Positions 14,204 through 39,421 of a stretch of 64,000 nucleotides of DNA are shown here, piece by piece. Each line of letters opens with the position of its first letter. Positions within the stretch are counted from its first letter, which is position 1. The notes below the pieces were generated by a model. The model made no database searches. It was not told where the DNA came from and saw only the letters and a list, made by a program, of their open reading frames with translations. The translations under genes were made by a program, and so were the position numbers. This DNA comes from Kordia jejudonensis (GTDB taxonomy: Bacteria; Bacteroidota; Bacteroidia; Flavobacteriales; Flavobacteriaceae): assembly GCF_001005315.1 (NCBI RefSeq), contig NZ_LBMG01000001.1, forward strand, positions 62,001 to 126,000, in the 5' to 3' direction.

Positions 14204-14662
14204 TTATGCGTTAGAAGTAACATCCCAATAATAAAAATTGTGCAATGTATCAAGTTCAAAATTAGTGACTTCATAGAGTTTATTGGCAACTGTATTATTC
14301 TTTTCGGTTTCTAACATAAGTCCGCAATATCCTGAAGTTTTGCAATGATTTTTGGCTGCGTTTATGAGTTCTTTTGAAAATCCTTTTCCACGTTGTGCAG
14401 TAGCTACAAATAAATCATTGAGCAACCACATTCGCTTCATTTGTGTTGAAGAGAACAGCGGATATAATTGTACAAATCCTGTGACGGTTTTATTTTGATC
14501 GCACGAAACATAAATGACAGATTCTTTGTTTTTTATACGTTCTTCTAAGAAAGCTTTTGCTCCTGAAAGATCGGATGTTTTACGATAAAAAACTCTGTAG
14601 GCATCAAATAGTTGTGCTAAATCATTAAAACAGTCTGCGTTATTTGTAATTAGTGTTGTCAT
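14204..14662 (-). CDS. GNAT-family N-acetyltransferase
   Basis: 152 residues with the GNAT fold signature. The acetyl-CoA loop is LFVATAQRGKGFSKELINAA (the QRGKG motif), followed by CGLMLETEKNNTVANKLYE, where the NxxAxxLYE block is typical. Cytoplasmic. It sits between the NRPS and the SAT-like gene in the same direction. It could acylate an amine or hydroxylamine of the peptide, or be a resistance acetyltransferase; substrate unknown. Confidence 0.85.
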   Translation of the reverse strand: MTTLITNNADCFNDLAQLFDAYRVFYRKTSDLSGAKAFLEERIKNKESVIYVSCDQNKTVTGFVQLYPLFSSTQMKRMWLLNDLFVATAQRGKGFSKELINAAKNHCKTSGYCGLMLETEKNNTVANKLYEVTNFELDTLHNFYYWDVTSNA

Positions 14663-14693: not shown

Positions 14694-15425
14694 TTATTTT
14701 TGTGTTGATATTTGTTGTGTCACTATTTTTTTTACGATGGTTTTTTCAGGTATATCATTGACAATAACACAATCTGGTCCTATTTTGGAATCCGATCCTA
14801 CTTGTACAGGACCTAAGATTTGTACACCTCTTGCCACGTGTACATTATTGCCCAAGGTAGGATGTCTTTTCCCAACTGGATTAAATGTAATTTTACGTGC
14901 GCCCAACAGTACATTATTTAGTAATGTGCAGTTGTCACCTATTTGAGATGTTGCGCCAATAAGCGTATTTACTCCATGATCGATTACAAAATTCTTTCCT
15001 ATTTTTACTTGAGGATGAATTTCAATTGTTGTCGTTTTAGTCGCTTCTTCTGAGATGTAAAACGCATAATATTTACATAAGTTACTAATTTTTTCGTTCT
15101 CATTGTCAACGTAAAAAAGTTCATGTGCCAATCTGTAATAAAATATTACTTTGTACGAGCGTGATAATTTATATATAAATGAAGGCGCAATTGTAATAGG
15201 ATCTTGTGCCACACGCGCGTACAAATCGCCATGACTTATTGCTGCAATTTTAGCATAGGTTTCATCATCAAGATTTATTTTTAATTGCACCAATTCTGGA
15301 CATAAGATTTGATACAATTTTCGAAAATCTGCTTCTATTTGAGCAATAGAAATATCATGCTCCACATCTTTAAAGTTGTTTTGCACCGCTATTTCAGGAA
15401 AAAGATTTGAACTTAAGTTATCCAT
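14694..15425 (-). CDS. Serine-acetyltransferase-like hexapeptide-repeat acyltransferase
   Basis: 243 residues. An N-terminal helical half is followed by a left-handed beta-helix (about 130-230). Visible features are IEIHPQVKIGKNFVIDHG (catalytic His in DHG), hexapeptide repeats and the loop KRHPTLGNNVHV. This is the arrangement of CysE-type serine O-acetyltransferases. Being inside the cluster, it could O-acetylate Ser or a hydroxylated precursor to create a leaving group. No O-acetylserine sulfhydrylase-like gene is next to it, so a 2,3-diaminopropionate pathway is incomplete here. Confidence 0.82.
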   Translation of the reverse strand: MDNLSSNLFPEIAVQNNFKDVEHDISIAQIEADFRKLYQILCPELVQLKINLDDETYAKIAAISHGDLYARVAQDPITIAPSFIYKLSRSYKVIFYYRLAHELFYVDNENEKISNLCKYYAFYISEEATKTTTIEIHPQVKIGKNFVIDHGVNTLIGATSQIGDNCTLLNNVLLGARKITFNPVGKRHPTLGNNVHVARGVQILGPVQVGSDSKIGPDCVIVNDIPEKTIVKKIVTQQISTQK

Positions 15426-15474: not shown

Positions 15475-16440
15475 TTAGTTATAGTTTTCTACCACAACTA
15501 ATTGTGTGTTTTCAATTGACCATTTTGCAAATCGTTTGAAATTTGAGTCTCCATAGGTGTCAAAAGTGAGGTCTCCGATACACGTTTTCCACGTTTGTTT
15601 GTGCAATTGTTGCTGCCAATCGCTCAATGTATTTGTGGTATACAGTTGCACAACAATTTCTATCGCAGCGTATGTTTCTAAGAAATACGTCATTGGATAA
15701 TCGGAAAACTGTTTGTAATACTGATTGTTTACGCGTGTTGCCGTTTTGCATTGAGAAGCGTGTTCGTACCCAAATACAACTACTTTTTGATCAATATGAC
15801 CTAGTTTTTTAGGAAGTTCAGGACGTACTAAATCGTCGGTAAAGAATATTTCATCAATGGTTTTTAAGTCTGTTAGATTTTTTTCTATAAACTTGATACT
15901 GTGATTGTAATTCCCGACGTACATTACCTTGTTTGCAGTTGCAATAGATTGTACAAGTGATACATGTGTTAACGTACGTAATTGTTTTTTTATGAGTGTT
16001 GATAGAGCAATTCCATGTGTTGAATTGTCGTGATCAATGTATAAAGTATGTGTCTTAATTTTTTGAAATTCATTTTTTATAAATGCAGCTAAGTCAGAAT
16101 CTTTTCCACAAAGTCGAAAAGCATTTGGAAAATCTCGCGTCAGTGCATCTGCCGTTGCGGCTGGCAAGAATACTGGAAATGCATTTTTATACGTTTTTAA
16201 AGCATTTTTTGCAGCGGCTGAGGCATAATGTCCAATAACCGCATGTACTTGCTTGGCTACTATATGTTGTGCAGCGATTGTTCCTCCTTCAGCTGTAGCG
16301 AAATCATTTTCCCATATAAGTTCAATCCCTCTTTTTTCTAGTTCAAGGTTTTTTGCTGCCATTTTTACGGCATTGATAAACGTATCTTGATGTATAGAGC
16401 CGTTTGGTGATAAATCTGCTGATATTCCAATACGTATCAT
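15475..16440 (-). CDS. Periplasmic-binding-protein-like (Leu/Ile/Val type) protein without signal peptide
   Basis: 321 residues with the type I periplasmic binding fold seen in amino-acid-binding proteins: GISADLSPNGSIHQDTFINAVKMA at the start, then HAVIGHYASAAAKNA, FPVFLPAATADAL and FPNAFRLCGKDSD. The chain starts directly with the first beta strand (MIRIGISADL), so there is no signal peptide or lipobox and it should be cytoplasmic. It lies 32 bases past the FAD oxidoreductase. It may bind an amino acid or pathway intermediate, or be a recruited fold with an enzymatic or regulatory role. No permease genes accompany it. Confidence 0.75.
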   Translation of the reverse strand: MIRIGISADLSPNGSIHQDTFINAVKMAAKNLELEKRGIELIWENDFATAEGGTIAAQHIVAKQVHAVIGHYASAAAKNALKTYKNAFPVFLPAATADALTRDFPNAFRLCGKDSDLAAFIKNEFQKIKTHTLYIDHDNSTHGIALSTLIKKQLRTLTHVSLVQSIATANKVMYVGNYNHSIKFIEKNLTDLKTIDEIFFTDDLVRPELPKKLGHIDQKVVVFGYEHASQCKTATRVNNQYYKQFSDYPMTYFLETYAAIEIVVQLYTTNTLSDWQQQLHKQTWKTCIGDLTFDTYGDSNFKRFAKWSIENTQLVVVENYN

Positions 16441-16472: not shown

Positions 16473-17582
16473 TTATAATTTGTAGCGCCATTTGAGTTTG
16501 TTCTCAACCGTTTGTGAGTTAAGATAGGCGTGTACTTGGGTACTGATTTCCTTTGCAATGGCAATGCAACATTTGTAACCTCTTCCTGAGAATCCGGCAG
16601 CTACATAGAGTCCTGGCTGGTTTTTTATAAACTGAACAATTGGTGCTTTTTCTTCAGTGTAGCTATCGTAGCCTTTCATTGCGTTGAAAGCTTGATGCGC
16701 AGTTTTTTTCTGTATCAAATCGTTCAAACGTGTCATTGCGTCTACCACTTCATTACTATTACTTTCGTTTAAAAGATCGGGCGTGTCTTGTATTTCAAAT
16801 ACCTGACTTCCTGCATAGAAGCTTCCGCCTGCATTTGGACGAATGTACGTTTCTATGGTTTCATCAATTAGTGAAATATTGATGGCTTTTGTATGATCTA
16901 CCAATTGTGTGAGCGATATGGAACGTGTAAAAATGGGCAACGTTGGCAGTATTTTCTTGGTATAGGCGCCAACTGTTAACACTATTGATTTACATTGTAC
17001 CGTGTCGTGTGGCAACACTATATCCCAAAGTTGATCACTTATTTGTTTGATGGCTTGCACACAACAATTTTCATATACTTCTCCTTTTTTTTCTTTGAAT
17101 CCGTTAGCAAAATTGATTGCTGTTTGTGTCGGATTTCCATAACCACCAAGGTGTTCATATATTGCAATTTTGTTGACAGTATTTTTGATCCAAGGATATT
17201 TTTGCGCAATTGCTTTACTTTCTAAAACTGTGATTGGATAGTCGCTATTGCCCATTTCTTGAGAAAAAGAAGCTGCTTTTTCAGCATGTTTTTTATCCAT
17301 GAGATATACAAAACCTGAACTGCTGTACGGGCTTTTTCCGGGTAAGTTGTGCTTGTCCCAATTGAGAAAGTATTGCAAAGATGTATACGAAAGTCTGCTA
17401 AGAGATGGCACAGGATCGTATACTCTTGTAATTCCTCTGGAATAACTTGTAGCACCTGAACTCCCTATTTTATTTTTTTCAATAAGTAGTACTGAATTGT
17501 CTTTGTTTTTTAGAAAATAAGCACAACTTGCACCATAAATTCCGCCGCCAATGACAACAGTGTCGTATACTTTTTTTGCCAT
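16473..17582 (-). CDS. FAD-dependent amine oxidase (DAO / glycine-sarcosine oxidase family)
   Basis: 369 residues. The N-terminal dinucleotide fold is VVIGGGIYGASCAYFL with IEK at the end of strand 2, and the C-terminal FAD-contact block is AAGFSGRGYKCC. These are DAO-family features shared by sarcosine and glycine oxidases. It begins 2 bases after the stop of the MetRS-like gene. In hydrazine pathways (s56-p1, triacsin, pyrazomycin) a DAO-type enzyme next to the hydrazine synthetase oxidises the lysine-derived N-N adduct and releases a hydrazino acid; the neighbourhood suggests the same job here. The family assignment is secure; the substrate is inferred. Confidence 0.85.
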   Translation of the reverse strand: MAKKVYDTVVIGGGIYGASCAYFLKNKDNSVLLIEKNKIGSSGATSYSRGITRVYDPVPSLSRLSYTSLQYFLNWDKHNLPGKSPYSSSGFVYLMDKKHAEKAASFSQEMGNSDYPITVLESKAIAQKYPWIKNTVNKIAIYEHLGGYGNPTQTAINFANGFKEKKGEVYENCCVQAIKQISDQLWDIVLPHDTVQCKSIVLTVGAYTKKILPTLPIFTRSISLTQLVDHTKAINISLIDETIETYIRPNAGGSFYAGSQVFEIQDTPDLLNESNSNEVVDAMTRLNDLIQKKTAHQAFNAMKGYDSYTEEKAPIVQFIKNQPGLYVAAGFSGRGYKCCIAIAKEISTQVHAYLNSQTVENKLKWRYKL

Positions 17583-17584
17583 TT

Positions 17585-19093
17585 TTAAGATACTATCGAT
17601 TTGTTAAATAAGGTGTGTGCAAATACTTTGTTTTTCATTGTATACTTTTCCATGAATTGGTTTGAAAGTGTAGGATGAATTGGTGTGCTTAAAGACACAT
17701 AAAGTATTGACGCTTCTACAATTTTGTCTGCTTCTTTGTTTGCATATAATTTCAAGATATATTCTAATAATTCTTGTAATACTGAAGCAATTCCATTGAT
17801 AGAAAAGTGTTTTAATTCGCCATGATGAGACCATTTTTTATAGAAATTTAAAAGTACCTCATCGGTGGTATTTTGTAATTTTGTGATGTGTTTGTCAATA
17901 TCGGTTACGGCTTCAAAAACGCTTTCGATACGCTGTATTCCACGTTCAAAAAAGTTTGTATACCAATGTGTAAATTTGAGCATTTCAAAGTTTCTAATTT
18001 CTTTTTCTGGTGAAATGAGCGCCAAATGAAAACGCACACCATCTGCGCTGTAATCTTTTAGAATATCATCTACCCATATGGCGTGATTTCTACTTGTTGA
18101 GAAGTCGCCACCTTCAAGTTTTAAGAATTTATTTGTCAATGCCGTGAAGTTATTGGTATAGCCTTCAAGGTTTGAAAGTAGTGATGGATATACAATAGCG
18201 TGACTAAAAGAACAATCGAAACCTAAAAAATTGACAATCCGTGTAGCAGTATCTTTCCAAAAATAGGCATGTTTTTCTGCGGCATTGTTTTGTGTCCAAA
18301 ATTCTTTGGAAGCTGCCAAATATCCTGCAATACCAGAAAACCAAGTGTGAATTGTTTTGTGTTCTCCATCTATTTCTAAATCGATTCCGTGTCCACCAGG
18401 ACGATCAATACACCAATCTAGTTCGCTTTCATTCAGGATATGATTTATAAAAATGTTTAAGTAATCTCTAACTTCATTTTCGGTATATAGTTGTTGTAGG
18501 AACTCTTTGTATTTTTCTAATTGGAGATATTCACGTTCTTTTTCGACAAACTGCACAGGCTTGTTGGTAAGGTAAGAAACCATGTTTTCCATTTTTTCGA
18601 GTACAGGACTGTTTGCACAAGCTTCACATTGACTTGCGTCAGAATGCGAGCCACAATAGTTACAAATTCCTCTTGCAAATGCTTCATATCCAAATTGCTG
18701 ATCTTCTTCCGAATAGGGAACTTGCATTGTCGTTTTCTGAATGGTTCCTTTTTTTACTGCATTTTGATACAGCATTCTGATGGCAGCAGTATAATGTTCA
18801 TTTTGATATGCTTTTAAGAAGATATCCAAATCAATATCTATTCCTTTGAGTGTTGCTTCAATACGATTACCAAAGTGCGTAGCCAATTCAAATTTATCTT
18901 TGTTTTGTTGTATTGCTTTGAGTGCAACATAATCTTGATAATCATCAGAATAGGAAACAAATAAAACATCATCACCCATCATTCTGCGAAGTCGTGCAAA
19001 TACATCAGCCGCCAAAAATGGTCCTGAAATGTGCCCTAAGTGAAGATTTCCATTAGGTGTTGGTGGTGCAATTGTAACGATATATTTCCCCAT
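17585..19093 (-). CDS. MetRS-like class I synthetase, probable half of a split hydrazine synthetase
   Basis: 502 residues of class I aminoacyl-tRNA synthetase (MetG-like) fold: APPTPNGNLHLGHISG (HIGH motif), a zinc knuckle CNYCGSHSDASQCEAC, and GGDFSTSRNHAIWVDD in place of KMSKS. The first Lys of the usual Bacteroidota KxSTS is Asp here. It is much shorter than a flavobacterial MetRS (about 690) and has no C-terminal tRNA-binding domain, so it is unlikely to be the housekeeping enzyme. The cupin gene lies 3 bases upstream, in the same order as the cupin-MetRS fusion of hydrazine synthetases, which join an N-hydroxy-diamine to an amino acid through adenylation and rearrangement. The function follows from this context. 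Confidence 0.82.
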   Translation of the reverse strand: MGKYIVTIAPPTPNGNLHLGHISGPFLAADVFARLRRMMGDDVLFVSYSDDYQDYVALKAIQQNKDKFELATHFGNRIEATLKGIDIDLDIFLKAYQNEHYTAAIRMLYQNAVKKGTIQKTTMQVPYSEEDQQFGYEAFARGICNYCGSHSDASQCEACANSPVLEKMENMVSYLTNKPVQFVEKEREYLQLEKYKEFLQQLYTENEVRDYLNIFINHILNESELDWCIDRPGGHGIDLEIDGEHKTIHTWFSGIAGYLAASKEFWTQNNAAEKHAYFWKDTATRIVNFLGFDCSFSHAIVYPSLLSNLEGYTNNFTALTNKFLKLEGGDFSTSRNHAIWVDDILKDYSADGVRFHLALISPEKEIRNFEMLKFTHWYTNFFERGIQRIESVFEAVTDIDKHITKLQNTTDEVLLNFYKKWSHHGELKHFSINGIASVLQELLEYILKLYANKEADKIVEASILYVSLSTPIHPTLSNQFMEKYTMKNKVFAHTLFNKSIVS

Positions 19094-19096
19094 AAT

Positions 19097-19471
19097 TTAC
19101 TTTTTATTTGTGTGTTCTGAAAGTATTTCACCATTCCACCATAGTGCATAAAAGTGAAAATCTTCATCAAATGGATTGGATACGTAATGATGATCTCCCG
19201 CTGGAATGTGTACAATGTCTCCTTGGTTCATTTCTGTCATTTCTCCATTGATGTTTACGAGTGCTTTTCCACTTATGACGATAAACATTTCTTCTTCATC
19301 AGCAGGCGAATTGACATGCGCTAACGAATCTGTTTTTGAACGACATATGCAATAAGCACCTCCAAATGGAAATGGAGACTGAGCATTCCCATTCCATGGT
19401 AATAGGCGTTGACCATCTACACCATATTCATGTTTTAAGTTGTTCCAGTCTAGTTTTTTTATAGTTCCCAT
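19097..19471 (-). CDS. Cupin protein, probable N-N-forming partner of the MetRS-like protein
   Basis: 124 residues from MGTIKKLDW, the start just past the aminotransferase stop; a longer frame to 19540 overlaps that gene and is less likely. Single cupin domain: motif 1 is HVNSPADEEEMFIVISG (His, Glu), motif 2 is GDIVHIPAGDHHYVSNP (His-His), enough for a Zn or Fe site. In known hydrazine synthetases a Zn cupin forms the N-N bond and is fused to the N-terminus of a MetRS-like domain. Here the two are separate adjacent genes. Without the neighbours this would only be a generic cupin. Confidence 0.8.
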   Translation of the reverse strand: MGTIKKLDWNNLKHEYGVDGQRLLPWNGNAQSPFPFGGAYCICRSKTDSLAHVNSPADEEEMFIVISGKALVNINGEMTEMNQGDIVHIPAGDHHYVSNPFDEDFHFYALWWNGEILSEHTNKK

Positions 19472-19475
19472 ATAG

Positions 19476-20876
19476 TTAGTTTTTGTTAATTGATTTGAAT
19501 ACTTCATCAAGAATGAAAAGAATATCTTTGGCTTGCTCATCGGTGAGAGTGAGTGGCGGTAATAGTCTTAGTACCGAACTTTCTCGTCCGCCTGTTTCAA
19601 TAATTAGTCCTTTGTCAAAACACCTTTTTTGAATTTCGGAAGCTAGTTTTGGACTTGTAGGATATGAACCTAAGTGACTTGTTTTTTTGTCAGTATCCAC
19701 AATTTCAATAGCAAGCATTAATCCTCTTCCTCTTACATCGCCTATAAATGGATATAGCGCTTTGAATTCATTGAAAATTTTGAGCATGTGTATGCCTTTT
19801 TTCTTGGAATTTTGAACAAGTTGGTGTTTTGTAATGTAATTTAGTACGGCTGTTCCTGTTGCCATTGCCATTTGGTTTCCTCTAAATGTTCCTGCATGCG
19901 ATCCTGGCGTCCATTTGTCAAGATGATCTCTGTATACAATTAGTGATAAGGGTAAGCTTCCTCCAATAGCTTTTGATATGACAATTACATCTGGCGTGAT
20001 GCCTGCTTCTTCAAAGGCAAACATGTCTCCAGTTCTTCCGATGCCTGCTTGCACTTCGTCAACGATGAGCGGAATGTCGTATTTTTTGGTAATCCTTCTA
20101 ATTCCTTGTAGCCAATATGGTGAAGCCACAATGGTTCCGCCTTCTCCTTGTACAGCTTCTAAAATAAATGCTGCTGGTTTTAGAACGCCACTGTGTGAGT
20201 CTGATAAAAGGTTTTCGATGTAGTGTAACGATATTTTTTCTGCTTCTACTCCTCCAACGCCAAATGGACACCGATATGAATATGGAAATGGCATAAAGAA
20301 TACGTCTTTCATTAAATTCAGTGCTTGGTCTTTTACTTTGGTGTTTGCCGTCAGTGATAATGCACCGTTTGTCATTCCATGGTAACTTCCTGAGAACGCA
20401 AAAACGGAAGATCTTCCCGTAGCAATTTTTGTAAGTTTTATGGCTGCTTCAATAGCATCAGCTCCACATGGACTGCAAAATTGAACTTTTGCATTTTCTC
20501 GGAAACCTTTGGGCAAAATTCCAAACAGCGTTTCTACAAATTTATCCTTTATAGGTGTGGTAATATCGAGTGTTAGTAGTGGAAGTTTAGTGTCAATACA
20601 TTTTTGAATGGCTTCATGGATGCATGGATGATTGTGTCCTAATGCTAAAGATCCTGCGCCCGACAAACAGTCGATGTATTGATTTCCTTCAACGTCTGTA
20701 ACGTAGATATCTTGCGCTTCTTTTATTGCTATAGGAATTCTTCTAGGATAGCTTCGAGCATTCGATTCAAATTTTCGTTGTCTATGTAAGTATTTTTCAT
20801 TCCCTGATTTACCATTAGATGCAAAGTGATGTAAATCAATAGGTTTTTCCGAAATTGTATTACTATTTTTATGCAT
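19476..20876 (-). CDS. Class III aminotransferase, diaminobutyrate-2-oxoglutarate type
   Basis: 466 residues, PLP-dependent. Features: SGAGSLALGHNHP near the start, FCSPCGADAIEAAIKL, the metal/PLP-binding EAVQGEGGTIV, DEVQAGIGRTG, and Schiff-base Lys in VISKAIGGSLPLS. The overall pattern is that of DABA aminotransferases (Dat/EctB relatives), which make L-2,4-diaminobutyrate from aspartate semialdehyde. Lying between the N-hydroxylase and the cupin, it may supply a diamine, or recycle the semialdehyde left when the N-N adduct is cleaved. Exact substrate not decided by sequence. Confidence 0.88.
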   Translation of the reverse strand: MHKNSNTISEKPIDLHHFASNGKSGNEKYLHRQRKFESNARSYPRRIPIAIKEAQDIYVTDVEGNQYIDCLSGAGSLALGHNHPCIHEAIQKCIDTKLPLLTLDITTPIKDKFVETLFGILPKGFRENAKVQFCSPCGADAIEAAIKLTKIATGRSSVFAFSGSYHGMTNGALSLTANTKVKDQALNLMKDVFFMPFPYSYRCPFGVGGVEAEKISLHYIENLLSDSHSGVLKPAAFILEAVQGEGGTIVASPYWLQGIRRITKKYDIPLIVDEVQAGIGRTGDMFAFEEAGITPDVIVISKAIGGSLPLSLIVYRDHLDKWTPGSHAGTFRGNQMAMATGTAVLNYITKHQLVQNSKKKGIHMLKIFNEFKALYPFIGDVRGRGLMLAIEIVDTDKKTSHLGSYPTSPKLASEIQKRCFDKGLIIETGGRESSVLRLLPPLTLTDEQAKDILFILDEVFKSINKN

Positions 20877-20980
20877 AATTGTACAATTTTTAATTAGTAA
20901 AAAGTTTGTTTAATCGAATGTAGATTGTGGTATCCGATTAAAAAGTAGCGGCAATTGTTTTTAGGATTTTGTAGTATGAA

Positions 20981-22285
20981 CTATGCAGAAATGTTCTTTG
21001 TATTTATCTGAAATGGAACTGTTTCTTTTATAGATTCTACAATTTTTTGGGAGCGAAGTGCTAATAAACTAAAGGATCCTGCATCGCCCATTCCGTGTGA
21101 TGATTCGCAAAGTCCGTTTAGAAAGAACGTATTTTTTTGTGTTCCCGTAAGGTTTAATGAATAGTTGTAGTTTACTTTTATAAGGTTATTTGTATCTACT
21201 TCTATGAGCGACGAAACGTTTTGTAGTAGCGGATGCAACGCTTCTTCATTTTCGGCAATTCCCGTATTCTTGAATCCTGTTGCCAATACGACTAAATCAA
21301 AGTTTTCCTCCTGCATATTTTCTTTTTCTAATTGTGTATAGGAAATTTTTAATGCTGCGTTATGCGCTTCTACAGACTGAATATCGGAACTTCTACGGAT
21401 GAATATTTTCTGCTTGTTTTGAATTTTTTGCAAGTATATTTTTTTGTAGAGTGTTTCTAATACGTCTAAATCACTTGCAGAGTAATTTGTTAGATATAAA
21501 TCGCCTAGCAAACGTTTTTTTACTTCGTCGTTAGATTTGTGAAAGAAGTCAACAAATTCAGGATAATAGACTTCTCCCGTAAATGGATTTACATCTTTTT
21601 GCTTGAATCCAAAAGCTCTGTGAAACCCAATAACTTCTGTATCTGGGAAATTTGCCGATAGGTGCAACATGATTTCTATGGCACTTTGACTTCCGCCTAC
21701 AACGGCTACTTTTTTAAGCGTTTGTGCTTTTGAGAGTTTCGTTATTTTCTCTAGATATGAGCTTAAGAAAACGACGCGATCTGTGTGTAGATTTTTGAAC
21801 TCTTTTGGAATATTTGGCGTTCTTCCAGGTGCTACAATGATTCGCTTAGCGTAATATACTTTTCCGCTTTCATCTTCAATATTGTATATTTTTTCATCTG
21901 CATAATTGACCACACTAATTTGGGTTACTTTGGTATCATATTGAGTTATATGATTAAAGTGTGAAGCCACCCAATTGATGTACTGCGTGTATTCAATTCT
22001 GTAAGGAAAATACATGCCTACATTTAGATGATCAAATAAACGATCGTGTTCAAACAGAAAGTTTGTAAAGCTGTATTTACTTCTAGGATTTCTGGGCGTT
22101 ACTAAATCGCGCAGTGGATGATTTTGAATGTCAGAATCTTCAAAAAGCATATATTCTTGCCAAATAGATGCTGATCTTGCTTCTAAAAACAATACATTTT
22201 TACTGAATTCCATTTCTTCCATTGCACAAGCAACAGCAATGTTAGCTGGTCCAAAACCAACTCCGATAGCATCGTATATTTTCAT
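20981..22285 (-). CDS. Lysine/ornithine/diamine N-hydroxylase (SidA/IucD family)
   Basis: 434 residues. FAD loop AIGVGFGPANIAVA (residues 6-19), NADPH loop VAVVGGSQSAIEIM, and the late LATGF motif, all diagnostic of flavin N-monooxygenases that hydroxylate the side-chain amine of Lys, Orn or similar diamines. In siderophore pathways the product goes to hydroxamates; in hydrazine pathways it is the first step before the cupin-MetRS enzyme. The nearby cupin, MetRS-like and DAO genes favour the second use. Substrate cannot be read from sequence. Confidence 0.92.
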   Translation of the reverse strand: MKIYDAIGVGFGPANIAVACAMEEMEFSKNVLFLEARSASIWQEYMLFEDSDIQNHPLRDLVTPRNPRSKYSFTNFLFEHDRLFDHLNVGMYFPYRIEYTQYINWVASHFNHITQYDTKVTQISVVNYADEKIYNIEDESGKVYYAKRIIVAPGRTPNIPKEFKNLHTDRVVFLSSYLEKITKLSKAQTLKKVAVVGGSQSAIEIMLHLSANFPDTEVIGFHRAFGFKQKDVNPFTGEVYYPEFVDFFHKSNDEVKKRLLGDLYLTNYSASDLDVLETLYKKIYLQKIQNKQKIFIRRSSDIQSVEAHNAALKISYTQLEKENMQEENFDLVVLATGFKNTGIAENEEALHPLLQNVSSLIEVDTNNLIKVNYNYSLNLTGTQKNTFFLNGLCESSHGMGDAGSFSLLALRSQKIVESIKETVPFQINTKNISA

Positions 22286-22329: not shown

Positions 22330-23952
22330 TTAGTATACTTCTACATTGTTTGTAGATAATTTTCCTGATTCCATTAGTGATGCGAGCATTTCCGCAGGAA
22401 TTTCTTTGGTTTGGTGTTTGCGTTGATAGAATACAATGTCGTAGAAACTACGTACATACTGTTTTATTTGTTCGAGACTAAAACCTTTTCGTTGTAGGTA
22501 GAAGAAACTCCATTGTCCAAAACCTTCTTCTCTATTGTATATACTTGTTTCTACGCTGTCTACGAAATGATCGAGCCATTTCATTGCTTCTAAGGAATCC
22601 ATGGTATTGTGACTCCAATCAAATCCTTCTCCTTGGATATCGTAGGTTTCACGTTCATTCCAAATAGGCGATAGTTTTTCGCAATACCATATTTGCGCTT
22701 TGTACAAGGCAGGTTTAAATTCATTGACAAAATCGATGGTTTCTTGAATTGTTTCTTCAGTTTCTCCAGGAAAACCAACAATAAAGTTTACGTGTGTAAG
22801 AATGTTATGTTTTTCTAATCGTGGAATGGCAAATTGGTAGTCTTTTTTTCTTGAAGTTTTGTTCATTCGTTTTAGTTGCAAATCGCTTCCAGATTCCATT
22901 CCTAAGAATACACCTTCACAACCTGAAGCCGCCATAAGATCAATGGTTTCTTCATCGCACTGATCGGCTCTAAAAAATGAATTCCATTTGAAGTTATAGT
23001 TGTTCTTAATCATCATTCGTAAGATGTCTTTGAATCGTTTTTTTGGAACATTGAACGTATCATCGTAAAAAGTGAGTGTATGAATTCCTAAGTCATTGAG
23101 TTGATTTAATTCTTCTTCCACTTCTGCTACCGTTAGGTAAGAATATCTTCCTGCCCTTTGCGGAAATGTACAATACGAACACGCATACGGACATGATTTT
23201 GCGGTTCCGATAGAAGCAAAACCGTTGGCAAAGTCTTCTTTAAAAAGCGCATAGTCAATTCGGTTTGTTTTCATTTCATTGTATTCTATTTCGGTTTCAT
23301 TATGAATAAATTCTCCGGAATCGTTTTTGAAGATTATATTTTTAACCGTCGCTAAATCGGTATTTGTTTTTAATGCATTGATAATGTTGGTCAGTGCTTT
23401 TTGACCTTCACTACTTACCACACAAACGTCTACAGATAGTTGCGTTAGTAATTTATTGATGGTTTTTTGAGGTACATCGGCCGTATTACTCATGATATAA
23501 GGACCACCAACAATGATTTTAGCATCTACATTGCAACTTCTGATAACTTTTGTAATTGCCACTATTGGATTTGCTTCTACATATAAAGTGGTTGTTACGG
23601 CAATAGTTGTATAGGTATTTTCTTTGAGTTTCTTTTTTATGAGTTCTACATTGTCACCATCGCTCACATGATCAAATGTGATGTTGTGCTGTGCCAAGAA
23701 ACTTCCAATGACCAATATTGGTGGCCATAAAAAATCTGTGTTGGATAGTGGCGTATCTTTAAATGTTTCTCCATTGAGATGATTTAAAAAATCTAATGGT
23801 GTATACGGATTGTTTTCATAGGTTAAAAACCCTTGATCCATATCTTGATACGCAGCAGATTGTTTTCCAAATGCTAATTCAAACATTTTTACAGTTCGTT
23901 TGAGGTTTCCTCTTGAGTGACCGATAATTAGGCAGTCATAATGCTTTTTCAT
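22330..23952 (-). CDS. B12-binding radical SAM protein, PhpK-like
   Basis: 540 residues from MKKHYDCLIIGH; an upstream ATG at 24018 would add 22 residues not seen in relatives. The N-terminal cobalamin-binding Rossmann region (IIVGGPYIMS near its end) precedes the radical SAM core with the CxxxCxxC cluster motif in SCPYACSYC, followed by a TIM-barrel region (FYDDTFNVPKKR, GMESGSDLQLKRMNK, VNFIVGFPGETEETI). The opening DCLIIGH and length recall the PhpK group, whose founder is a P-methyltransferase; many relatives sit in NRPS clusters. Likely methylates an unactivated carbon or similar centre of an intermediate. Confidence 0.88.
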   Translation of the reverse strand: MKKHYDCLIIGHSRGNLKRTVKMFELAFGKQSAAYQDMDQGFLTYENNPYTPLDFLNHLNGETFKDTPLSNTDFLWPPILVIGSFLAQHNITFDHVSDGDNVELIKKKLKENTYTTIAVTTTLYVEANPIVAITKVIRSCNVDAKIIVGGPYIMSNTADVPQKTINKLLTQLSVDVCVVSSEGQKALTNIINALKTNTDLATVKNIIFKNDSGEFIHNETEIEYNEMKTNRIDYALFKEDFANGFASIGTAKSCPYACSYCTFPQRAGRYSYLTVAEVEEELNQLNDLGIHTLTFYDDTFNVPKKRFKDILRMMIKNNYNFKWNSFFRADQCDEETIDLMAASGCEGVFLGMESGSDLQLKRMNKTSRKKDYQFAIPRLEKHNILTHVNFIVGFPGETEETIQETIDFVNEFKPALYKAQIWYCEKLSPIWNERETYDIQGEGFDWSHNTMDSLEAMKWLDHFVDSVETSIYNREEGFGQWSFFYLQRKGFSLEQIKQYVRSFYDIVFYQRKHQTKEIPAEMLASLMESGKLSTNNVEVY

Positions 23953-24220
23953 AATCGAGTTTTTAAAAGTTATTAAATGAGCAGCATCCAAATATTGTAT
24001 TGACAGATACTCAGGCACAAATGAGCTGAATTGTTGCTGTAAAATAGGTATTGCGAATGCTACGTTTTAAATAGTGTTTTGGTAACAGGGAAGTGATGTA
24101 CACTTTTTTGATTTGCTAAAAAATTGACGTACAAACAAGTTTTATGGTTACATTTTGCGTGTACGAAGACATGAAACAAAGATGTTTGTTTCTTATTTTA
24201 TGATAGATATGTATGTATGT

Positions 24221-24711: not shown

Positions 24712-25593
24712 TTATTTAATTTGTAAGTTAACTAGAATTTCTTGGTTTACCAGCATGGATTGTTCTCTATGTGGAAAATGGTTTGCATTTTTTACTTTTA
24801 CAAAATTCATCTTCGTAAAGATCGTATAGGATAGATTTTTTTCAACGGTTTGCCATAATATACACGCATCATCTTCTCCGTGAATTAGCAAAAAAGGAAC
24901 GGCTACTTCTTTTGACATTTTTTTGAGATAAGGCAATAGTTGTAATGAAAAATTAGCGGCAAAAGCATTTTTATAATATGAAACTGTGTATTTGTAATTG
25001 TCCTTAAATATGTCTTTAATACGTTCCAATTCTTCTTGTGTTAGTATGTCTTCATTGGTCCAATCGTTCCACAATACGTCAATCATGTTAAAGTTGTCAT
25101 GTGCAATTGCAGTAGCGGCAACACTAGAGTTGAGCAAAAAGTAGTACCAACTTTGCTTCTGTTGTACTGTATTTTTACATAATTCATCGTACAATGCATT
25201 TCCATACGGAACACTCATACAGGTAAGACTGCTAAATAACGATGGTTCAATACGTACTGCGGTGTATGCGGCAGCGCAACCCCAATCGTGCGCTACTACG
25301 TGAACTTTTTCTAGTTGCAATGCTGCGATAAAGTCTAATAAATCTACGCCTAATTGTAAAGCGGTTATTGGTTTTTTTTCGTTGTATCCTTCTTTATAAT
25401 ATCCGCGCATGTAAGGAGCAATTACTTGATATCCTTGTTCGGAAAAAAAATCAAATTGCGCTGCAAATGTCTGCGGATGATCAGGAAATCCATGTAAAAA
25501 CAGTATCGGTTCTCCGTGTCCTTTACTGATGTATTTTACAGTTTCCTCTTCAGCATTGAGCTTACAAATGTTAGATTGGATTAATGAACTCAT
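24712..25593 (-). CDS. Alpha/beta hydrolase, epoxide-hydrolase/haloalkane-dehalogenase-like
   Basis: 293 residues. HGFPDHP is the oxyanion-hole HGxP motif. VAHDWGCAAAY carries an Asp nucleophile, as in epoxide hydrolases and haloalkane dehalogenases, rather than Ser. HGEDDACI gives the acid and NANHFPHREQ the His. Start overlaps the P450 stop (ATGA), so the pair is co-translated. Because the cluster makes a chlorohydrin amino acid (4-chlorothreonine, inferred), an Asp-nucleophile hydrolase could act on it or on an epoxide made by the P450; this is speculation. Confidence 0.85.
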   Translation of the reverse strand: MSSLIQSNICKLNAEEETVKYISKGHGEPILFLHGFPDHPQTFAAQFDFFSEQGYQVIAPYMRGYYKEGYNEKKPITALQLGVDLLDFIAALQLEKVHVVAHDWGCAAAYTAVRIEPSLFSSLTCMSVPYGNALYDELCKNTVQQKQSWYYFLLNSSVAATAIAHDNFNMIDVLWNDWTNEDILTQEELERIKDIFKDNYKYTVSYYKNAFAANFSLQLLPYLKKMSKEVAVPFLLIHGEDDACILWQTVEKNLSYTIFTKMNFVKVKNANHFPHREQSMLVNQEILVNLQIK

Positions 25594-26684
25594 ACGGTAA
25601 TTTCCTTGTGTTTTTCATTTATTACCATACTTTCTACACTTCTAAAACCTTGCAAATCTTCCCAAGTTATATGTTGAATTTCGGAGGTTTTAACGAGTTC
25701 CCAAATTTTCGGAATGATGTGTATTGCAATATTTTGCGACAGTTTTTGTCCTAAACATTGATGCATTCCTATACCGTACGATAGTAATGGTTTTCTTTTT
25801 CGATTCATCAGAAATTCTTCAGCGTTGTCACCAAATACACGTTCGTCACGGTTTGCGCTCCCAATAATTACAGAAAGAAAGTCTCCTTGTTTTATTTGTT
25901 TTCCGTTCATTTCTATATCCGTTGTTGCCACTCGCATTACTGACTGCAATGGACTTTCCGTTCGTAATGTTTCAGTGATGATATCTTTTATTTTTAAAGC
26001 ATCCCAATTATAATCATGCGTAAACATGTTGAACAACGTATTGGTAATTAAATTAGACGTATTGAACGTCATTGCATAGATGATCAACGCATATTGAATT
26101 TTCATTGACGCACTCAGCTGATTTGGCGCGCAAGCATTGAGATACGTTAAACTTTCATGAAACGCTAAAATATCATCTTTAGTAAACGTTGTTTTTTGCA
26201 ACAGATAAGCGACTTGAAATACGTGTGTATAGCATTCTTTTTCGTCGAACGATTTATCTATTTTTAAAATGAATTTTGCAAGTTTTATCATCAGCGGAAT
26301 TACAATATCATTTTTTAAATCACAACGCTGAGGATCAATTTTTTGTGTGATGTTTGATAGTGAAGTTTCCATGATTGATTTGAATTCTTCATCTTCATAG
26401 GAATGAATTAACGCGGTTAGTTGATACTTTAGTTGCACAACTTCTTCGGCGTAATCGGAATGTAATATCCAACTATTTAGCATGTTTTTCACCTCGCTTA
26501 AAACACCTTGATCAATGTCGGCTAAATCTGATTTTTCAAATAAGTATTTAAATTTATTTGATGAAAAAGTTTCATGCGCCTCTAGGCAAAATTTTACATC
26601 GTCGTAACTTGATACAAGCCAAACGTTATTAATTTTGAATGGTGACCGTTGTCGTCCCATTTTATAAAAATTATATAGTTTCAT
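25590..26684 (-). CDS. Cytochrome P450 with atypical I helix
   Basis: 364 residues, short for a P450. The heme-binding loop is YGIGMHQCLG with Cys310; ExxR is ETLR at 238-241, followed by the PLQSVMR region. The I-helix stretch reads AMTFNTSN (204-211) where most P450s have AGxET(T): the acid-alcohol pair that helps split O2 is Phe-Asn here. This suggests unusual chemistry, or substrate-assisted oxygen activation, as in some P450s acting on carrier-bound amino acids. It follows a free carrier protein and A domain, so a tethered amino-acid substrate is likely. Confidence 0.9.
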   Translation of the reverse strand: MKLYNFYKMGRQRSPFKINNVWLVSSYDDVKFCLEAHETFSSNKFKYLFEKSDLADIDQGVLSEVKNMLNSWILHSDYAEEVVQLKYQLTALIHSYEDEEFKSIMETSLSNITQKIDPQRCDLKNDIVIPLMIKLAKFILKIDKSFDEKECYTHVFQVAYLLQKTTFTKDDILAFHESLTYLNACAPNQLSASMKIQYALIIYAMTFNTSNLITNTLFNMFTHDYNWDALKIKDIITETLRTESPLQSVMRVATTDIEMNGKQIKQGDFLSVIIGSANRDERVFGDNAEEFLMNRKRKPLLSYGIGMHQCLGQKLSQNIAIHIIPKIWELVKTSEIQHITWEDLQGFRSVESMVINEKHKEITV

Positions 26685-26743: not shown

Positions 26744-27001
26744 TTAATAAGCTTTGTCCTGTTTGGAAATAATGCTTATTATATCGCCAATCGTTTCAGG
26801 AGCTTCTTCATATTCTATCTCACTAATGTCGATATATCCTTCTTCTTCAAGCTCTAATAAAAACCCAATAAGAACCATAGAATCTAGTCCTATTTTTTTG
26901 ATTTCGATTTCTTCTACCGTGGCAAGTTCTTCTTCGCTAAATTGACCACTTATGTTTTGAATTTTTTCAATGATCACACTTTTTATATCTGTATTGCTCA
27001 T
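26744..27001 (-). CDS. Free-standing acyl/peptidyl carrier protein
   Basis: 85 residues; acidic four-helix carrier protein with phosphopantetheine Ser in KIGLDSMVLIGFLLEL. It sits between the adenylation enzyme and the P450, so it probably carries the amino acid activated by the former while the latter modifies it. Confidence 0.9.
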   Translation of the reverse strand: MSNTDIKSVIIEKIQNISGQFSEEELATVEEIEIKKIGLDSMVLIGFLLELEEEGYIDISEIEYEEAPETIGDIISIISKQDKAY

Positions 27002-27051: not shown

Positions 27052-28593
27052 TTAAGCCGTTTTTTCTGTTACCAAATTGGCTTTTACAAATTCTTTTGTT
27101 TTCTTCTCGTTAATTTTATTAGAACTTGTTTTGATTACTTTATCTGTAATATAAAAATGCTTCGGAATCATATATTCTGGTAAAATAGTTCGCAGTTGAT
27201 CTGCCAACCATTTGCCTTCCATGATTATTTCATTTTGAACTAATACATACGCATATATTTGTTTTTTTCCTTTGAATTCAAGTACGTCTGCAATGCAATA
27301 GTCAATATTTTCTATGGATAGTAGCGCGTCTCTTATTTCGTTTAGATTGATGCGTTTTCCTAATATTTTGACTTCACTGTCATTTCGTCCTTCAAAATAG
27401 TAGTTGCCATCCGCATCAAACTTTGCCAAATCGCCCGTTATATAATATTTTTCATCATCAAAATGAATAAATGCTTTTGCTGTCTGATCTGGAGCATTCC
27501 AGTAACCATCCATTAATTGATCGCCGCCAATGAGCAGCGTTCCCACCGTATTAGGTGTATGAATTGGTTGGTTTTTATCGTCCATCAACATTACTTTTAC
27601 ATCTTCAAAACCTTTCCCAATAGGATATAGTTTGGTTCGCTCATGATCGGCTTCTGTAATGGTATGTGCCATGCATAAAGAGTTGCACTCCGTAGGTCCA
27701 TAACCATTGTGTATGATGAGTCCTGGCACACTGTCGAGCCAACGGTTGATGAGTTTTACATCGCATACTTCTCCGCCTGTCATTAAAATTTTGAGTTTTG
27801 TATCACGATATTTACTAATCATTTCCGCATCTCCTGATATTAATGCCAATACTGAAGAGACACAGATAAGGTGTGTAATGTCGTTGTTTTTTACAAGATC
27901 TAGAATGAGTCTAGGAATTAATAGCTTTGTGTATACATATACGCCTGTTCCAAATAATAAGGGTAAAAAAGTATCTTGAATTCCTACATCAAAATGATAC
28001 GGTCCAAAATTTATGTTTCGCGAATGTTGATCAAATTGCAATAGATTGTTATGCGCTTTAAAGTACTGAATCATACTTTTATGACTCAAAATAACACCTT
28101 TGGGCATTCCTGTAGAACCGCTGGTATGAATGATAACTCCTGCATTGGTTTCATCATTGTTAGTGGTTTTGAAACTACTTTCCTTGTCATGCAAAGCTGC
28201 TATAGATTGGTAATTAATTGTCGGTACATGAATCACTTCTGAGAAACGATCAAGGTATTTTTGAGAAGATATAACCAAACATGCGTCGGTATTTTTGAGA
28301 ATAAATTCTGTTCTTTTGACTCCATTTTCTTTGTCTACTGGCACATAAATAGCTCCTGCTTTCCATATAGCAATAATGGCAACAATAATTTCTGAAGCTT
28401 TGTCTGTTATAACCAATACACGATCGCCGTACTTAATATTGTGATGCGCAACCATTTGTTGTGCAAGGTTGTTAGACTTATGCTCCAACTCATTGAATGT
28501 ATAACTTGTTTTGTGATTGAGAATTGCGAGCTGATTCGGAGTTTCTATACTCCAATGCTCAATAATATGTGCTAAAGTTTTTGCTGTATTCAT
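27052..28593 (-). CDS. Stand-alone adenylation enzyme (amino-acid-activating)
   Basis: 513 residues from MNTAKTLAHI; an ATG at 28620 is possible. Core motifs: VIIHTSGSTGMPKG (A3), FDVGIQDTF (A4), GYGPTECNS (A5), YITGDLAKF (A7), GRNDSEVKILGKRINLNEI (A8), SSNKINEKK (A10 Lys). By alignment the pocket reads D-V-Q-C-M-G-G-S-L; the Asp supports an alpha-amine or similar substrate, but the code matches nothing I recognise. A carrier protein lies on each side, giving an A-T pair that feeds the pathway in trans. It is clearly paralogous to the enzyme at 40915-42474. Confidence 0.88.
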   Translation of the reverse strand: MNTAKTLAHIIEHWSIETPNQLAILNHKTSYTFNELEHKSNNLAQQMVAHHNIKYGDRVLVITDKASEIIVAIIAIWKAGAIYVPVDKENGVKRTEFILKNTDACLVISSQKYLDRFSEVIHVPTINYQSIAALHDKESSFKTTNNDETNAGVIIHTSGSTGMPKGVILSHKSMIQYFKAHNNLLQFDQHSRNINFGPYHFDVGIQDTFLPLLFGTGVYVYTKLLIPRLILDLVKNNDITHLICVSSVLALISGDAEMISKYRDTKLKILMTGGEVCDVKLINRWLDSVPGLIIHNGYGPTECNSLCMAHTITEADHERTKLYPIGKGFEDVKVMLMDDKNQPIHTPNTVGTLLIGGDQLMDGYWNAPDQTAKAFIHFDDEKYYITGDLAKFDADGNYYFEGRNDSEVKILGKRINLNEIRDALLSIENIDYCIADVLEFKGKKQIYAYVLVQNEIIMEGKWLADQLRTILPEYMIPKHFYITDKVIKTSSNKINEKKTKEFVKANLVTEKTA

Positions 28594-28688
28594 ATGTGTA
28601 TGTTTTCTATGGTGATACAATCAATCTTATAGATAAGTATGTTTTATATGGCATTGCGTTGACAAAGAATGGTACTGCACCTTTATTT

Positions 28689-31302: not shown

Positions 31303-32514
31303 TTAGGCAACCGTTTCTATAAAATCAGCAAATACCTGCTGTAGCTCTTTTGGCGCATCAAATAAGGAAGCATGATCTCCTTTTTTACGCTGATAAAATA
31401 CTTTGTGTTTTAAACGTTCATTTAAGCGTAGTGAACCGCCTGGATGTGCCGTTGTATCTTCTTCGCTTGTTACGACTAATACTTTTTGTTGAATGTCATC
31501 GGCAACCATGTTACTGTCATACGCCATAATATTCTCGTTGATTTTAGAATAGGTATAAAGTAGCTTGTCATCAATAAACGGATACATCATAATACAACCC
31601 AAATGTGGCGCTAAGGTTTTAATGGTTCTTGGTGTACAAATGAGTTCGCGAATGCCTTCTGCTTCTTCCAAGCTACCATATGCCATCATCATTGTAGATT
31701 TTATATTTTTTTGATGAATGGTTAAGATGCTATTGTCTCGCCAATTGTAATCGCCATGCCAAACACTAGCCGATGTAAATAGCGATGGATACGACGTTAG
31801 GCTTTGCATGGTAAGAATTGCGCCGCCGCACATTCCAAAAATATGTACATTTTCTTTGTCAAAATGACGAACAATTGCTACCATATCTTCCGATTGTGCT
31901 TTGACATCAAAGTTGGTAATATTTGGCGTTACTTCTGTGAATAAGTTGCGCGTTTCCCAAGTAATTACATGGTAATTTTCCCCTAAAAATTGCATCCAAG
32001 CTTGTCCAATAACCCACGGCATTCCACATGGCAATACCAACAAAATGGTAGGTTTTTTTTCATCGCCATAAGTGTATACAGGAAGTGATGTGTTGTCAAA
32101 ACTTATTATCGTATGTTTGGTAACTTTTGTAGCAATATGATCATTTAATATGTAATTGATTTCTTCTGCATTGGCTTCAAACGTGGTATTGCTTTTTTCA
32201 ATACAATCTGTAATGGTAATGTGCGCCATTTTTTCATAAAACGACAAGGATTCATATGATGTTGCTACCAAGGAAATATAATTTTCAATACCATTCCATT
32301 TGATAATTTCGCGCATTGTTTCATTGAAACCAGCAAGATCTCTTTGTACTATTGTAAATGAGGTTTGTGTATATTCAACAATAGGTTTTATACCTAATAT
32401 AGCCGTTTGTAACGCATGAATTGCGGTTACTTTTTCCATATCTATATTGAGTGGTGTTTGTTGTTCCAATGTATTTGTTTTTTTGAATGAGTATGTGTTT
32501 GTTGTTAGATCCAA
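31303..32514 (-). CDS. SyrC-like aminoacyl transferase (alpha/beta hydrolase fold, Cys nucleophile)
   Basis: 403 residues. A ~130-residue N-terminal extension precedes an alpha/beta-hydrolase core. The nucleophile elbow reads IFGMCGGAI with Cys229 instead of Ser; SyrC of the syringomycin pathway also uses a Cys (Cys224) to carry 4-chlorothreonine from SyrB1 to SyrE. The acid lies in VVTSEEDTTAHPGG and a late His in KGDHASLF. Length is close to SyrC. With a SyrB2-like chlorinase and a Thr-specific A-T protein next door, it very probably shuttles chlorothreonine to the A-less C-T-TE module at 43533. Overlaps the cupin stop by 10 bases. Confidence 0.85.
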   Translation of the reverse strand: MDLTTNTYSFKKTNTLEQQTPLNIDMEKVTAIHALQTAILGIKPIVEYTQTSFTIVQRDLAGFNETMREIIKWNGIENYISLVATSYESLSFYEKMAHITITDCIEKSNTTFEANAEEINYILNDHIATKVTKHTIISFDNTSLPVYTYGDEKKPTILLVLPCGMPWVIGQAWMQFLGENYHVITWETRNLFTEVTPNITNFDVKAQSEDMVAIVRHFDKENVHIFGMCGGAILTMQSLTSYPSLFTSASVWHGDYNWRDNSILTIHQKNIKSTMMMAYGSLEEAEGIRELICTPRTIKTLAPHLGCIMMYPFIDDKLLYTYSKINENIMAYDSNMVADDIQQKVLVVTSEEDTTAHPGGSLRLNERLKHKVFYQRKKGDHASLFDAPKELQQVFADFIETVA

Positions 32515-32867
32515 TCAGGTACCATTGTCAGCGTGTTTTCTTCTTCTCCTGTGTTTACCGTCATTTTTGGCTCAAATAGCAGTACTTTGACTTCTTCGTT
32601 ATTTTTTGTCACAGGACAGTGTTCTACGCCTTTTGGAATAATGGCCATATTTCCAGCATTGAGTACTAAATCTTTATCGCGCAATTTGATAATGAGTGTG
32701 CCTTCCAACACATAAAAAAGTTCATCTTCATGTTCGTGACTATGCCAGCAAAATTCTCCTTTAAATTTGGCAACTTTTACATATTGATTGTTCAATTCGC
32801 CAATGATATATGGATTCCAATGTTCGGTAAATCCTTCAAATTTTTCTTGTAATGAGAGTACGTTCAT
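32505..32867 (-). CDS. Cupin protein
   Basis: 120 residues, one cupin domain. Motif 1 is WHSHEHEDELFYVLEG (His-x-His, Glu) and motif 2 is MAIIPKGVEHCPV (PxGxxH), so the full metal site is present. It lies between the chlorinase and the SyrC-like gene. Possible roles are metal or substrate handling or a small isomerase/oxygenase step; the sequence does not decide. Confidence 0.85.
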   Translation of the reverse strand: MNVLSLQEKFEGFTEHWNPYIIGELNNQYVKVAKFKGEFCWHSHEHEDELFYVLEGTLIIKLRDKDLVLNAGNMAIIPKGVEHCPVTKNNEEVKVLLFEPKMTVNTGEEENTLTMVPDWI

Positions 32868-32973: not shown

Positions 32974-33936
32974 TTATACTTGCACTCCTTTTACGATTTC
33001 TTCAAAAGGAATTCCTGTAGTTGTTTCAGTTCTCATTTTATTTGATTCGTTTGTATTTTCTCCAGATACAACCACAACTCCGTAATTTTCTAAAGAGATT
33101 TTTCCTCCATATTCAATTACTTCGTCCAGTCCTGGATAAATGTTTACAATAGATGGCACATAACGAGAAACGTATCCTAAACGCATGTTGTTTGTTTTTC
33201 CTTCATGACGATGCGATGCGTGCATTAATGTTGACCAGAAAATGATAAATTGTCCAGCTTTCATTTTCATAGAAACCGCTTTTGACTCGTCTGGTTTCCA
33301 GCTTGGATCTTTTTGAAGATTTCTATAGTCGTATCCAAAAAATCCTCTTTTTTCTCCATCTTTTTCAAGATTGTTGTTTGCTTCTGGATCGTATTCCATT
33401 TCTTTCGATTCATCGTAGAACATTTCTTCGTGTGTTCCAGGAATAAATTGCAAGCAAGCCGTATCAATATCTGTGTCTGTAAATGCAGTCCAAACTGTTA
33501 ATGTTCCTCCAAAACCATCTAAATCTGGCCATAATATTTGTGGCTCTCCACTTGCGTTTTCAAAGGTGTCTGCTTGGTGCCAGTCTGTTCCTTCATCGCC
33601 TGGATATTTTGGAAAGAACTCGCTTCGCCAGCACACTACATTTTCTCCGAATACATCATTTAGTTTGTTTACAATTTCTGGACGACATACATGATTTGCC
33701 AAAAATTCATTGTCTAAGTGACGATCATAGTTTGCAATGTTAGTTCCTCCAGAGATGGAGTTGTCATCTGTGTATACTGCTTTACTTCTATCGAGCATTT
33801 TGAGACGTTCACGCTTCCAAATATTTTTTATTTCTTCTGGCTCATATAAGGTAAAAGGTCCAGCATATCCGTTTTTTCTAAAATCTTTGATTTGCTCTTC
33901 TGTTAAAGCAAACTTTCTTTTTTTGGTGTTTTCCAT
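32974..33936 (-). CDS. Non-heme Fe/2-oxoglutarate chlorinase, SyrB2-like (4-chlorothreonine forming)
   Basis: 320 residues, alignable by eye with SyrB2 almost end to end, with a constant +4 offset: [42 protein letters not shown] and [15 protein letters not shown] are shared. Iron ligands are His120 and His239; the usual Asp is Ala122 (HQA), which leaves room for chloride and is the hallmark of halogenases over hydroxylases. Arg252 fits the 2-oxoglutarate-binding position. SyrB2 chlorinates the methyl of Thr bound to SyrB1, and here the gene starts 12 bases after a Thr-specific A-T protein ends. Product inferred as carrier-bound 4-chlorothreonine. Confidence 0.95.
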
Positions 33937-38140: not shown

Positions 38141-38215
38141 TGGTTTTATGTGATCGGTTATAAATTCTTATTAAACTTAAGTAATATTTCCTTAATTGAA
38201 AAACGTATTTCCAAC

Positions 38216-39400: not shown

Positions 39401-39421
39401 GTTGTCAGGTAAAAGTTATTG

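Follow-up and report, generated by a model that had tools for sequence, protein, structure and literature searches.

A predicted diaminobutyrate-type hydrazine-forming cassette in a nonribosomal peptide gene cluster of Kordia jejudonensis

Described hydrazine synthetases and the Kordia cassette

The closest described systems to the genes studied here are the hydrazine synthetases (HS) composed of a cupin and a part resembling methionyl-tRNA synthetase (MetRS). According to the abstract and sections 10 and 12 of a 2021 study (PMC8664883), these sometimes occur as two stand-alone enzymes; the stand-alone cupin RHS1 (PDB 5UQP) was used in that work and over ten candidates, single genes or pairs, were chosen for testing. 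Section 15 of a review (PMC11705231) lists further accession pairs together with the putative albofungin pair Afn8/Afn9, describes Apy9 and Apy11, which use L-2,4-diaminobutyrate (DABA), and gives lysine as the donor in most of the pathways studied. Here we analysed a 64,000-nucleotide stretch of the Kordia jejudonensis genome (contig NZ_LBMG01000001.1, positions 62,001 to 126,000; hereafter the window), for which an initial annotation had proposed a split hydrazine synthetase, encoded by separate cupin and MetRS-like genes in a nonribosomal peptide synthetase (NRPS) cluster. Phylogeny and gene context bear out the kinship with HS, whereas a claim that the split enzyme is new is ruled out by the natural split pairs in the parts of PMC8664883 cited above; taken with section 15 of PMC11705231, neither the split layout nor the DABA donor is new as such.

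Rhodococcus jostii RHA1 resembles the window in encoding RHS1 and its stand-alone MetRS-like partner as separate proteins, with an N-hydroxylase in the cluster; the RHS1 pathway uses N6-hydroxylysine and glutamate (PMC8664883, section 10). PyrN, Spb40, Tri28 and AzsN (PMC11705231, section 15) comprise the same two domains and are likewise accompanied by an N-hydroxylase, and the Spb40 and Tri28 pathways, as described there, also include a flavin adenine dinucleotide (FAD)-dependent oxidase. In contrast to the split pair of the window, these four enzymes are fused and take a lysine-derived donor. The actinopyridazinone system Apy9/Apy10/Apy11, likened here by description only, is presented in the same section as combining DABA N4-hydroxylation, hydrazine formation and FAD-dependent cleavage, as we propose for the window, but it comes from an actinomycete and has alanine as partner amino acid, whereas the host of the window belongs to Bacteroidota. 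A literature search found no paper that joins N-N bonds and hydrazine with Bacteroidota nonribosomal peptides.

The five genes named in the initial annotation were recovered at the places given there as intact open reading frames (ORFs) on the minus strand, and the Pfam and NCBIfam matches agree with the families assigned. Together with three genes that follow them, their order in the window is:

20981..22285, minus strand: SidA/IucD-type flavin N-hydroxylase (NMO), predicted L-DABA N4-hydroxylase (Pfam Lys_Orn_oxgnase, 287.6 bits; member of the NMO clade described below)
19476..20876, minus strand: class III aminotransferase, predicted DABA--2-oxoglutarate transaminase that would supply DABA (NF005393; TIGR00709)
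19097..19471, minus strand: stand-alone cupin, 124 residues from the second ATG, predicted N-N bond-forming half (Pfam Cupin_2)
17585..19093, minus strand: MetRS-like protein, 502 residues, predicted amino-acid-activating and ester-forming half (tRNA-synt_1g at residues 4-375)
16473..17582, minus strand: DAO-type FAD oxidoreductase, predicted to cleave a hydrazine-linked intermediate (Pfam DAO, 134.7 bits)
15475..16440, minus strand: protein of the Peripla_BP_6 fold, between the oxidase and CysE-like genes, with no transporter gene as neighbour
14694..15425, minus strand: CysE-like hexapeptide acyltransferase that scores under the NCBIfam cut-offs; some of the related loci have one too
14204..14662, minus strand: GNAT acyltransferase, also present in some of the related loci

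On the same strand, 3 base pairs (bp) separate the end of the cupin gene from the start of the MetRS-like gene, as had been noted. One scan for relatives kept the best 80 of its 363 matches, and all locus totals given here are accordingly to be read as "at least". In most relatives the NMO, cupin and FAD oxidase genes neighbour one another, and the order from the NMO to the Peripla_BP gene is identical in a Moraxellaceae metagenome-assembled genome (MAG; locus L051) and in Serratia (locus L023). The cassette also extends past position 16473: in 39 of the 40 loci of the window's clade a relative of the 15475-16440 gene directly follows the oxidase; in the fortieth, L040, no match to either of these two genes turned up on the 12.8 kb contig. 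Gene content and the conserved neighbourhood were observed directly, as were the phylogenetic placement and the motif changes that set this branch apart.

Two altered halves and a conserved partner

In a 59-row tree the MetRS-like protein was split with 100/100 support from six canonical MetRS and stood among 53 of the 88 HS rows, including the locus (L080) of Streptomyces fragilis, named as an azaserine producer in PMC11705231. We left 36 near-identical or duplicate loci out ahead of the MetRS-like and NMO trees; the former carried warnings of unusual composition for the window and seven other rows and a long branch for L051. A separate MetRS with 29% identity to the MetRS-like protein is encoded in the same genome; its grouping with the MetRS from the Chitinophagales MAG that contains locus L011 fits a Bacteroidota host, as do the nearest relatives. 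At 13 positions of the methionine pocket, the MetRS-like protein reads APTDWGIYCSFSH versus ALYEWAPYNIVFH in the genome's own MetRS; neither pocket nor placement is that of a canonical methionyl-tRNA synthetase. No anticodon-binding or tRNA_bind domain was among its Pfam families at E 1e-3, in agreement with the initial annotation, which had noted that a tRNA-binding C-terminus is missing. By phylogeny, the protein belongs with the cupin/MetRS hydrazine synthetases and not with tRNA-charging enzymes.

The change reported in the KMSKS motif was borne out in part. The motif does read D330-FSTS, FSTS itself being usual in the family, and only the exchange of Lys for Asp is unusual. Over 88 HS rows, from which the canonical MetRS of the genome and L001, a duplicate of the window, were kept apart, the first residue of the loop is Lys in 48, all ahead of FSTS, Asp in 14 and Asn in 26, hence 40 of 88 loci carry Asp or Asn in this position. 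All 19 Asp- or Asn-bearing (D/N) rows of the tree form one clade (100/100), and the 26 Asn-type loci are all Pseudomonas records. The S. fragilis locus keeps the Lys of KFSTS that the window lacks; PyrN, Spb40 and Tri28 were compared by description only. Since the HIGH motif of the window (HLGH, residues 18-21), STSR and the motif Asp (D293) are retained, ATP use is still the simplest reading for the MetRS-like enzyme, and R335 perhaps replaces the KMSKS Lys.

Similarly, the cupin had been credited with a full metal site, of which the first His, the Glu and the last His are present (H52, E61 and H95). In the motif H-V-N-S-P-A-D-E-E-E, the expected second His is Asn (N54) and is accompanied by a three-residue insert, thus the site is not that of the characterised hydrazine synthetases. 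The RHS1 ligands are Asp63, His65, Glu69 and His103 (PMC8664883, section 10); the Glu and the last His are common to both proteins, and Asn54 of the window takes the place of His65. Unlike the window protein, the cupin plu4264 of Photorhabdus luminescens (PDB 4MV2/4Q29) keeps HxH and has no insert. We scored the best cupin per locus, which sometimes lies kilobases from the MetRS-like gene, in 86 loci (L040 and L075 had no scored cupin). The Glu (E61 in the window, E69 in RHS1, E56 in PyrN), given as invariant among the cupins studied in section 12 of PMC8664883, and the last His were found in 86 of 86, and the second metal residue is His in 43, Gln in 26 and Asn in 17. Asn or Gln replaces the second His in 37 of 39 cupins of the D/N clade, and outside it this His is absent in six of 47. 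The HxN-plus-insert cupin is not the product of one clean change, because Serratia L023 and Rhizobium L034 keep HxH inside the clade.

Activity is lost or nearly lost in PyrN K458A, PyrN H52A and RHS1 H65A (PMC8664883), which suggests that both residues, the Lys of KMSKS and the second His of the metal site, matter. Therefore, the D/N branch, if active, must cope differently. The window lacks both the ATP-motif Lys (PyrN K458, a position inferred by us) and the second His (RHS1 H65, PyrN H52), which is needed in two studied members; neither residue is shown to define the family. The replacements are uniform inside subgroups across species, which argues against decay. At E 1e-60 a match was found in one of 395 genomes of the phylum and one of 397 of the family (samples may overlap), in each case the genome of the window, and the Serratia L023 protein as query found only itself among 295 genomes of its order. 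Of 101 pattern matches in viral contigs, none was confirmed.

The genes for the cupin, the MetRS-like protein, the FAD oxidase and the Peripla_BP protein occur together over 39 loci in two phyla, the latter two always adjoining. The window oxidase showed no significant BLASTP match with those of loci L008 or L006. Peripla_BP-like proteins are also found in Pantoea L006 and Deinococcus L007, both of which keep the Lys. The closest solved relatives of the window's Peripla_BP protein are amino-acid-binding proteins, and in an alignment of 42 sequences, reduced to 41 by removal of the window's duplicate, the residues S74, T96 and D114, which we take to match the ligand site of LivJ, are kept in 90 to 100%, and a D202-D203 pair in all 41. 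By eye, no export signal was evident in five proteins, those of Pantoea, Serratia, Xenorhabdus, Pseudomonas L012 and the window, as their first strand begins only a few residues after the start; other rows have longer, mechanically assigned starts. In the Deinococcus ficus plasmid locus, a gene annotated as of the isocitrate lyase/phosphoenolpyruvate (PEP) mutase family (L007:10857-11693) adjoins a split cupin/MetRS-like pair, which also lies beside substrate-binding-protein and ATP-grasp genes.

Donor, proposed pathway and competing explanations

The initial annotation had taken the aminotransferase as a hint of another diamine or of a recycling step, and the former is supported. The enzyme scores above the cut-offs of NF005393, diaminobutyrate--2-oxoglutarate transaminase (694.8 bits, cut-off 671), and of TIGR00709 (576.4 bits, cut-off 401.6). 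In a quick tree of ORFs longer than 330 residues, with two long branches meeting in another part of it, the window's NMO is placed in a 23-row clade (SH-like approximate likelihood ratio test 99), apart from the L080-type (azaserine) NMOs and from those of Pseudomonas; for 17 of these 23 rows the locus also encodes a DABA-type aminotransferase, taken in relatives as a phmmer match above 200 bits to the window's enzyme and not as a classification. In the adjacent 16-row clade, which holds the Pseudomonas NMOs, eight rows come from aminotransferase loci, six of these eight being second NMOs. The window thus pairs a DABA aminotransferase with an NMO of the group that accompanies such enzymes elsewhere, which would suit an Apy-like pathway. 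The aminotransferase recurs in nine of the 14 Asp-type loci; among the remaining five, two are short contigs (L010 and L044), one gave a partial match (L039), and none was found in the flanks of L011 and L034. SbnA and SbnB were both found in 25 of the 26 Asn-type loci and one of the two in the remaining locus, and the two of these loci run against NCBIfam scored above cut-offs for 2,3-diaminopropionate synthesis. Because of these genes, the donors are probably DABA in the Asp-type and diaminopropionate in the Asn-type loci, and on balance the gene content and the NMO tree support DABA over lysine for the window. The association of Asp or Asn with DABA or Sbn genes amounts to one change on the tree, which offers no independent replicates. 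Next to the Serratia cassette, L023:13600-16404 encodes another NMO and a protein resembling DABA decarboxylase (165.7 bits against a cut-off of 900).

We consider it likely, with a probability of roughly 0.7, that the locus is a DABA-type hydrazine-forming cassette feeding the NRPS cluster, the chemical steps, the donor DABA and the small partner amino acid all being inferred. The aminotransferase would provide DABA, and the NMO would hydroxylate its N4. By analogy with PyrN, the MetRS-like enzyme would activate a small amino acid as adenylate and transfer it as an ester onto the hydroxylamine, and the cupin would rearrange this ester to form the N-N bond. Finally, the FAD oxidase may cleave one C-N bond, which would set free a hydrazino product for use by the NRPS. 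The pair's placement by phylogeny and context, beside an N-hydroxylase and a DAO-type oxidase, agrees with the initial annotation in linking the pair to hydrazine synthetases.

A split hydrazine synthetase with N6-hydroxylysine or N5-hydroxyornithine as donor, as for s56-p1, in which the aminotransferase recycles the aldehyde of the oxidase, would fit the best solved relatives of the NMO, ornithine and lysine hydroxylases, and the prevalence of lysine in the pathways reviewed. We regard it as unlikely, given that the aminotransferase scores as a DABA transaminase, that the NMO lies outside the azaserine-type group and that Asn-type relatives have diaminopropionate genes instead. More improbable still is a hydroxamate siderophore unit as the product of the NMO and aminotransferase, with the cupin/MetRS pair doing something unrelated or having lost activity. 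The active-site changes in both halves and a TonB-type/outer-membrane beta-barrel gene in the cluster (49391-51784) would suit such a function, yet the ORFs are open, the Glu and last His persist in every scored cupin, and the four-gene association is kept in two phyla.

A role of the MetRS-like protein in charging tRNA, as an additional MetRS that might for instance serve self-resistance, is suggested by its best NCBIfam model, NF008859, which is named methionine--tRNA ligase and was matched with 507.2 bits, below the cut-off of 553. This role was rejected on the tree placement, and the altered pocket, the lack of a listed tRNA-binding domain and the adjacent cupin and NMO genes in relatives also speak against it, leaving it hardly any probability. 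The DABA-type cassette is the reading we retain. Its headline is ordinary, the split being known, and the branch is unusual: the replaced residues and the Peripla_BP partner set it apart.

The surrounding cluster and implications for hydrazine synthetases

The cluster spans approximately 7142 to 57921, apparently all on the minus strand, between the genes for glycerol-3-phosphate dehydrogenase and phenylalanyl-tRNA synthetase, and encodes NRPS modules and, among other proteins, a chlorinating enzyme and one that resembles argininosuccinate synthase. Upstream of the cassette were found:

27052..28620, minus strand: stand-alone adenylation (A) domain, code read as DVQILTGSL-K
26744..27001, minus strand: carrier protein adjoining the A domain, recognised by its motif (GLDSM), with no Pfam match at 1e-5
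25590..26684, minus strand: cytochrome P450, a relative of which also adjoins the A domain in the Bacteroidota locus L011

The A-domain code, read at what we presume to be the code positions, matched nothing nameable. Relatives of the A domain occur in 11 of the 14 Asp-type loci, the window included, and the carrier motif in 10 of 14; in four related loci (L003, L042, L044 and L061) carrier and cupin form one protein. These domains leave room for a carrier-bound substrate or product. A scheme in which a carrier protein takes over from ATP in all of the Lys-less branch was discarded as not general, as phmmer found no A domain in the flanks fetched for the 26 Pseudomonas loci of the Asn type. 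More tentatively, and with the odds against it, the N-N mechanism may be changed in the branch lacking the Lys and the second His, the amino acid coming from, or the product staying on, a carrier protein, with the Peripla_BP-fold protein as cytosolic holder or catalyst of an amino-acid-like hydrazine intermediate.

Several further genes of the cluster were observed, all on the minus strand. A NusG-like gene (57409-57921) heads the approximately 50 kb one-strand cluster, which suggests a dedicated antiterminator. Adjacent genes at 37676-40450 encode a YbaK-like deacylase, an argininosuccinate synthase-like protein and a GntD/VioC-like dioxygenase, each below NCBIfam cut-offs, and possibly serve a modified arginine unit. 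At 33948-37331, one adenylation domain is followed by eight tandem carrier domains, with GGTSLSL recurring every 75 residues from residue 550 to 1075 and a 225 bp DNA repeat of 4.6 copies with 95% matches. The adjacent gene at 32974-33936 encodes a chlorinating enzyme (TIGR01762, 452.7 bits, cut-off 226.3); possibly many carriers are loaded for one halogenase. The chlorinating-enzyme gene also has another cupin gene beside it (32505-32867), whose product keeps the HxH site intact. The B12-type radical SAM protein encoded at 22330-24018 scored 594 against the cut-off of 600 for the P-methyltransferase PhpK, a function that was rejected as the genome gave no PEP mutase match.

Taken together, the locus represents a hydrazine synthetase branch, broad and conserved, that has replaced two residues to which mutants assign importance and that is accompanied by genes for short-chain diamino acids. 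Through this D/N branch the current mechanistic model becomes directly testable, and the Peripla_BP-fold protein is a possible unstudied partner of N-N biosynthesis. The branch also hints at a role for 4MV2 and 4RD7, two cupin structures titled without a function. Moreover, the chemistry of hydrazine synthetases would extend to the NRPS clusters of Bacteroidota.

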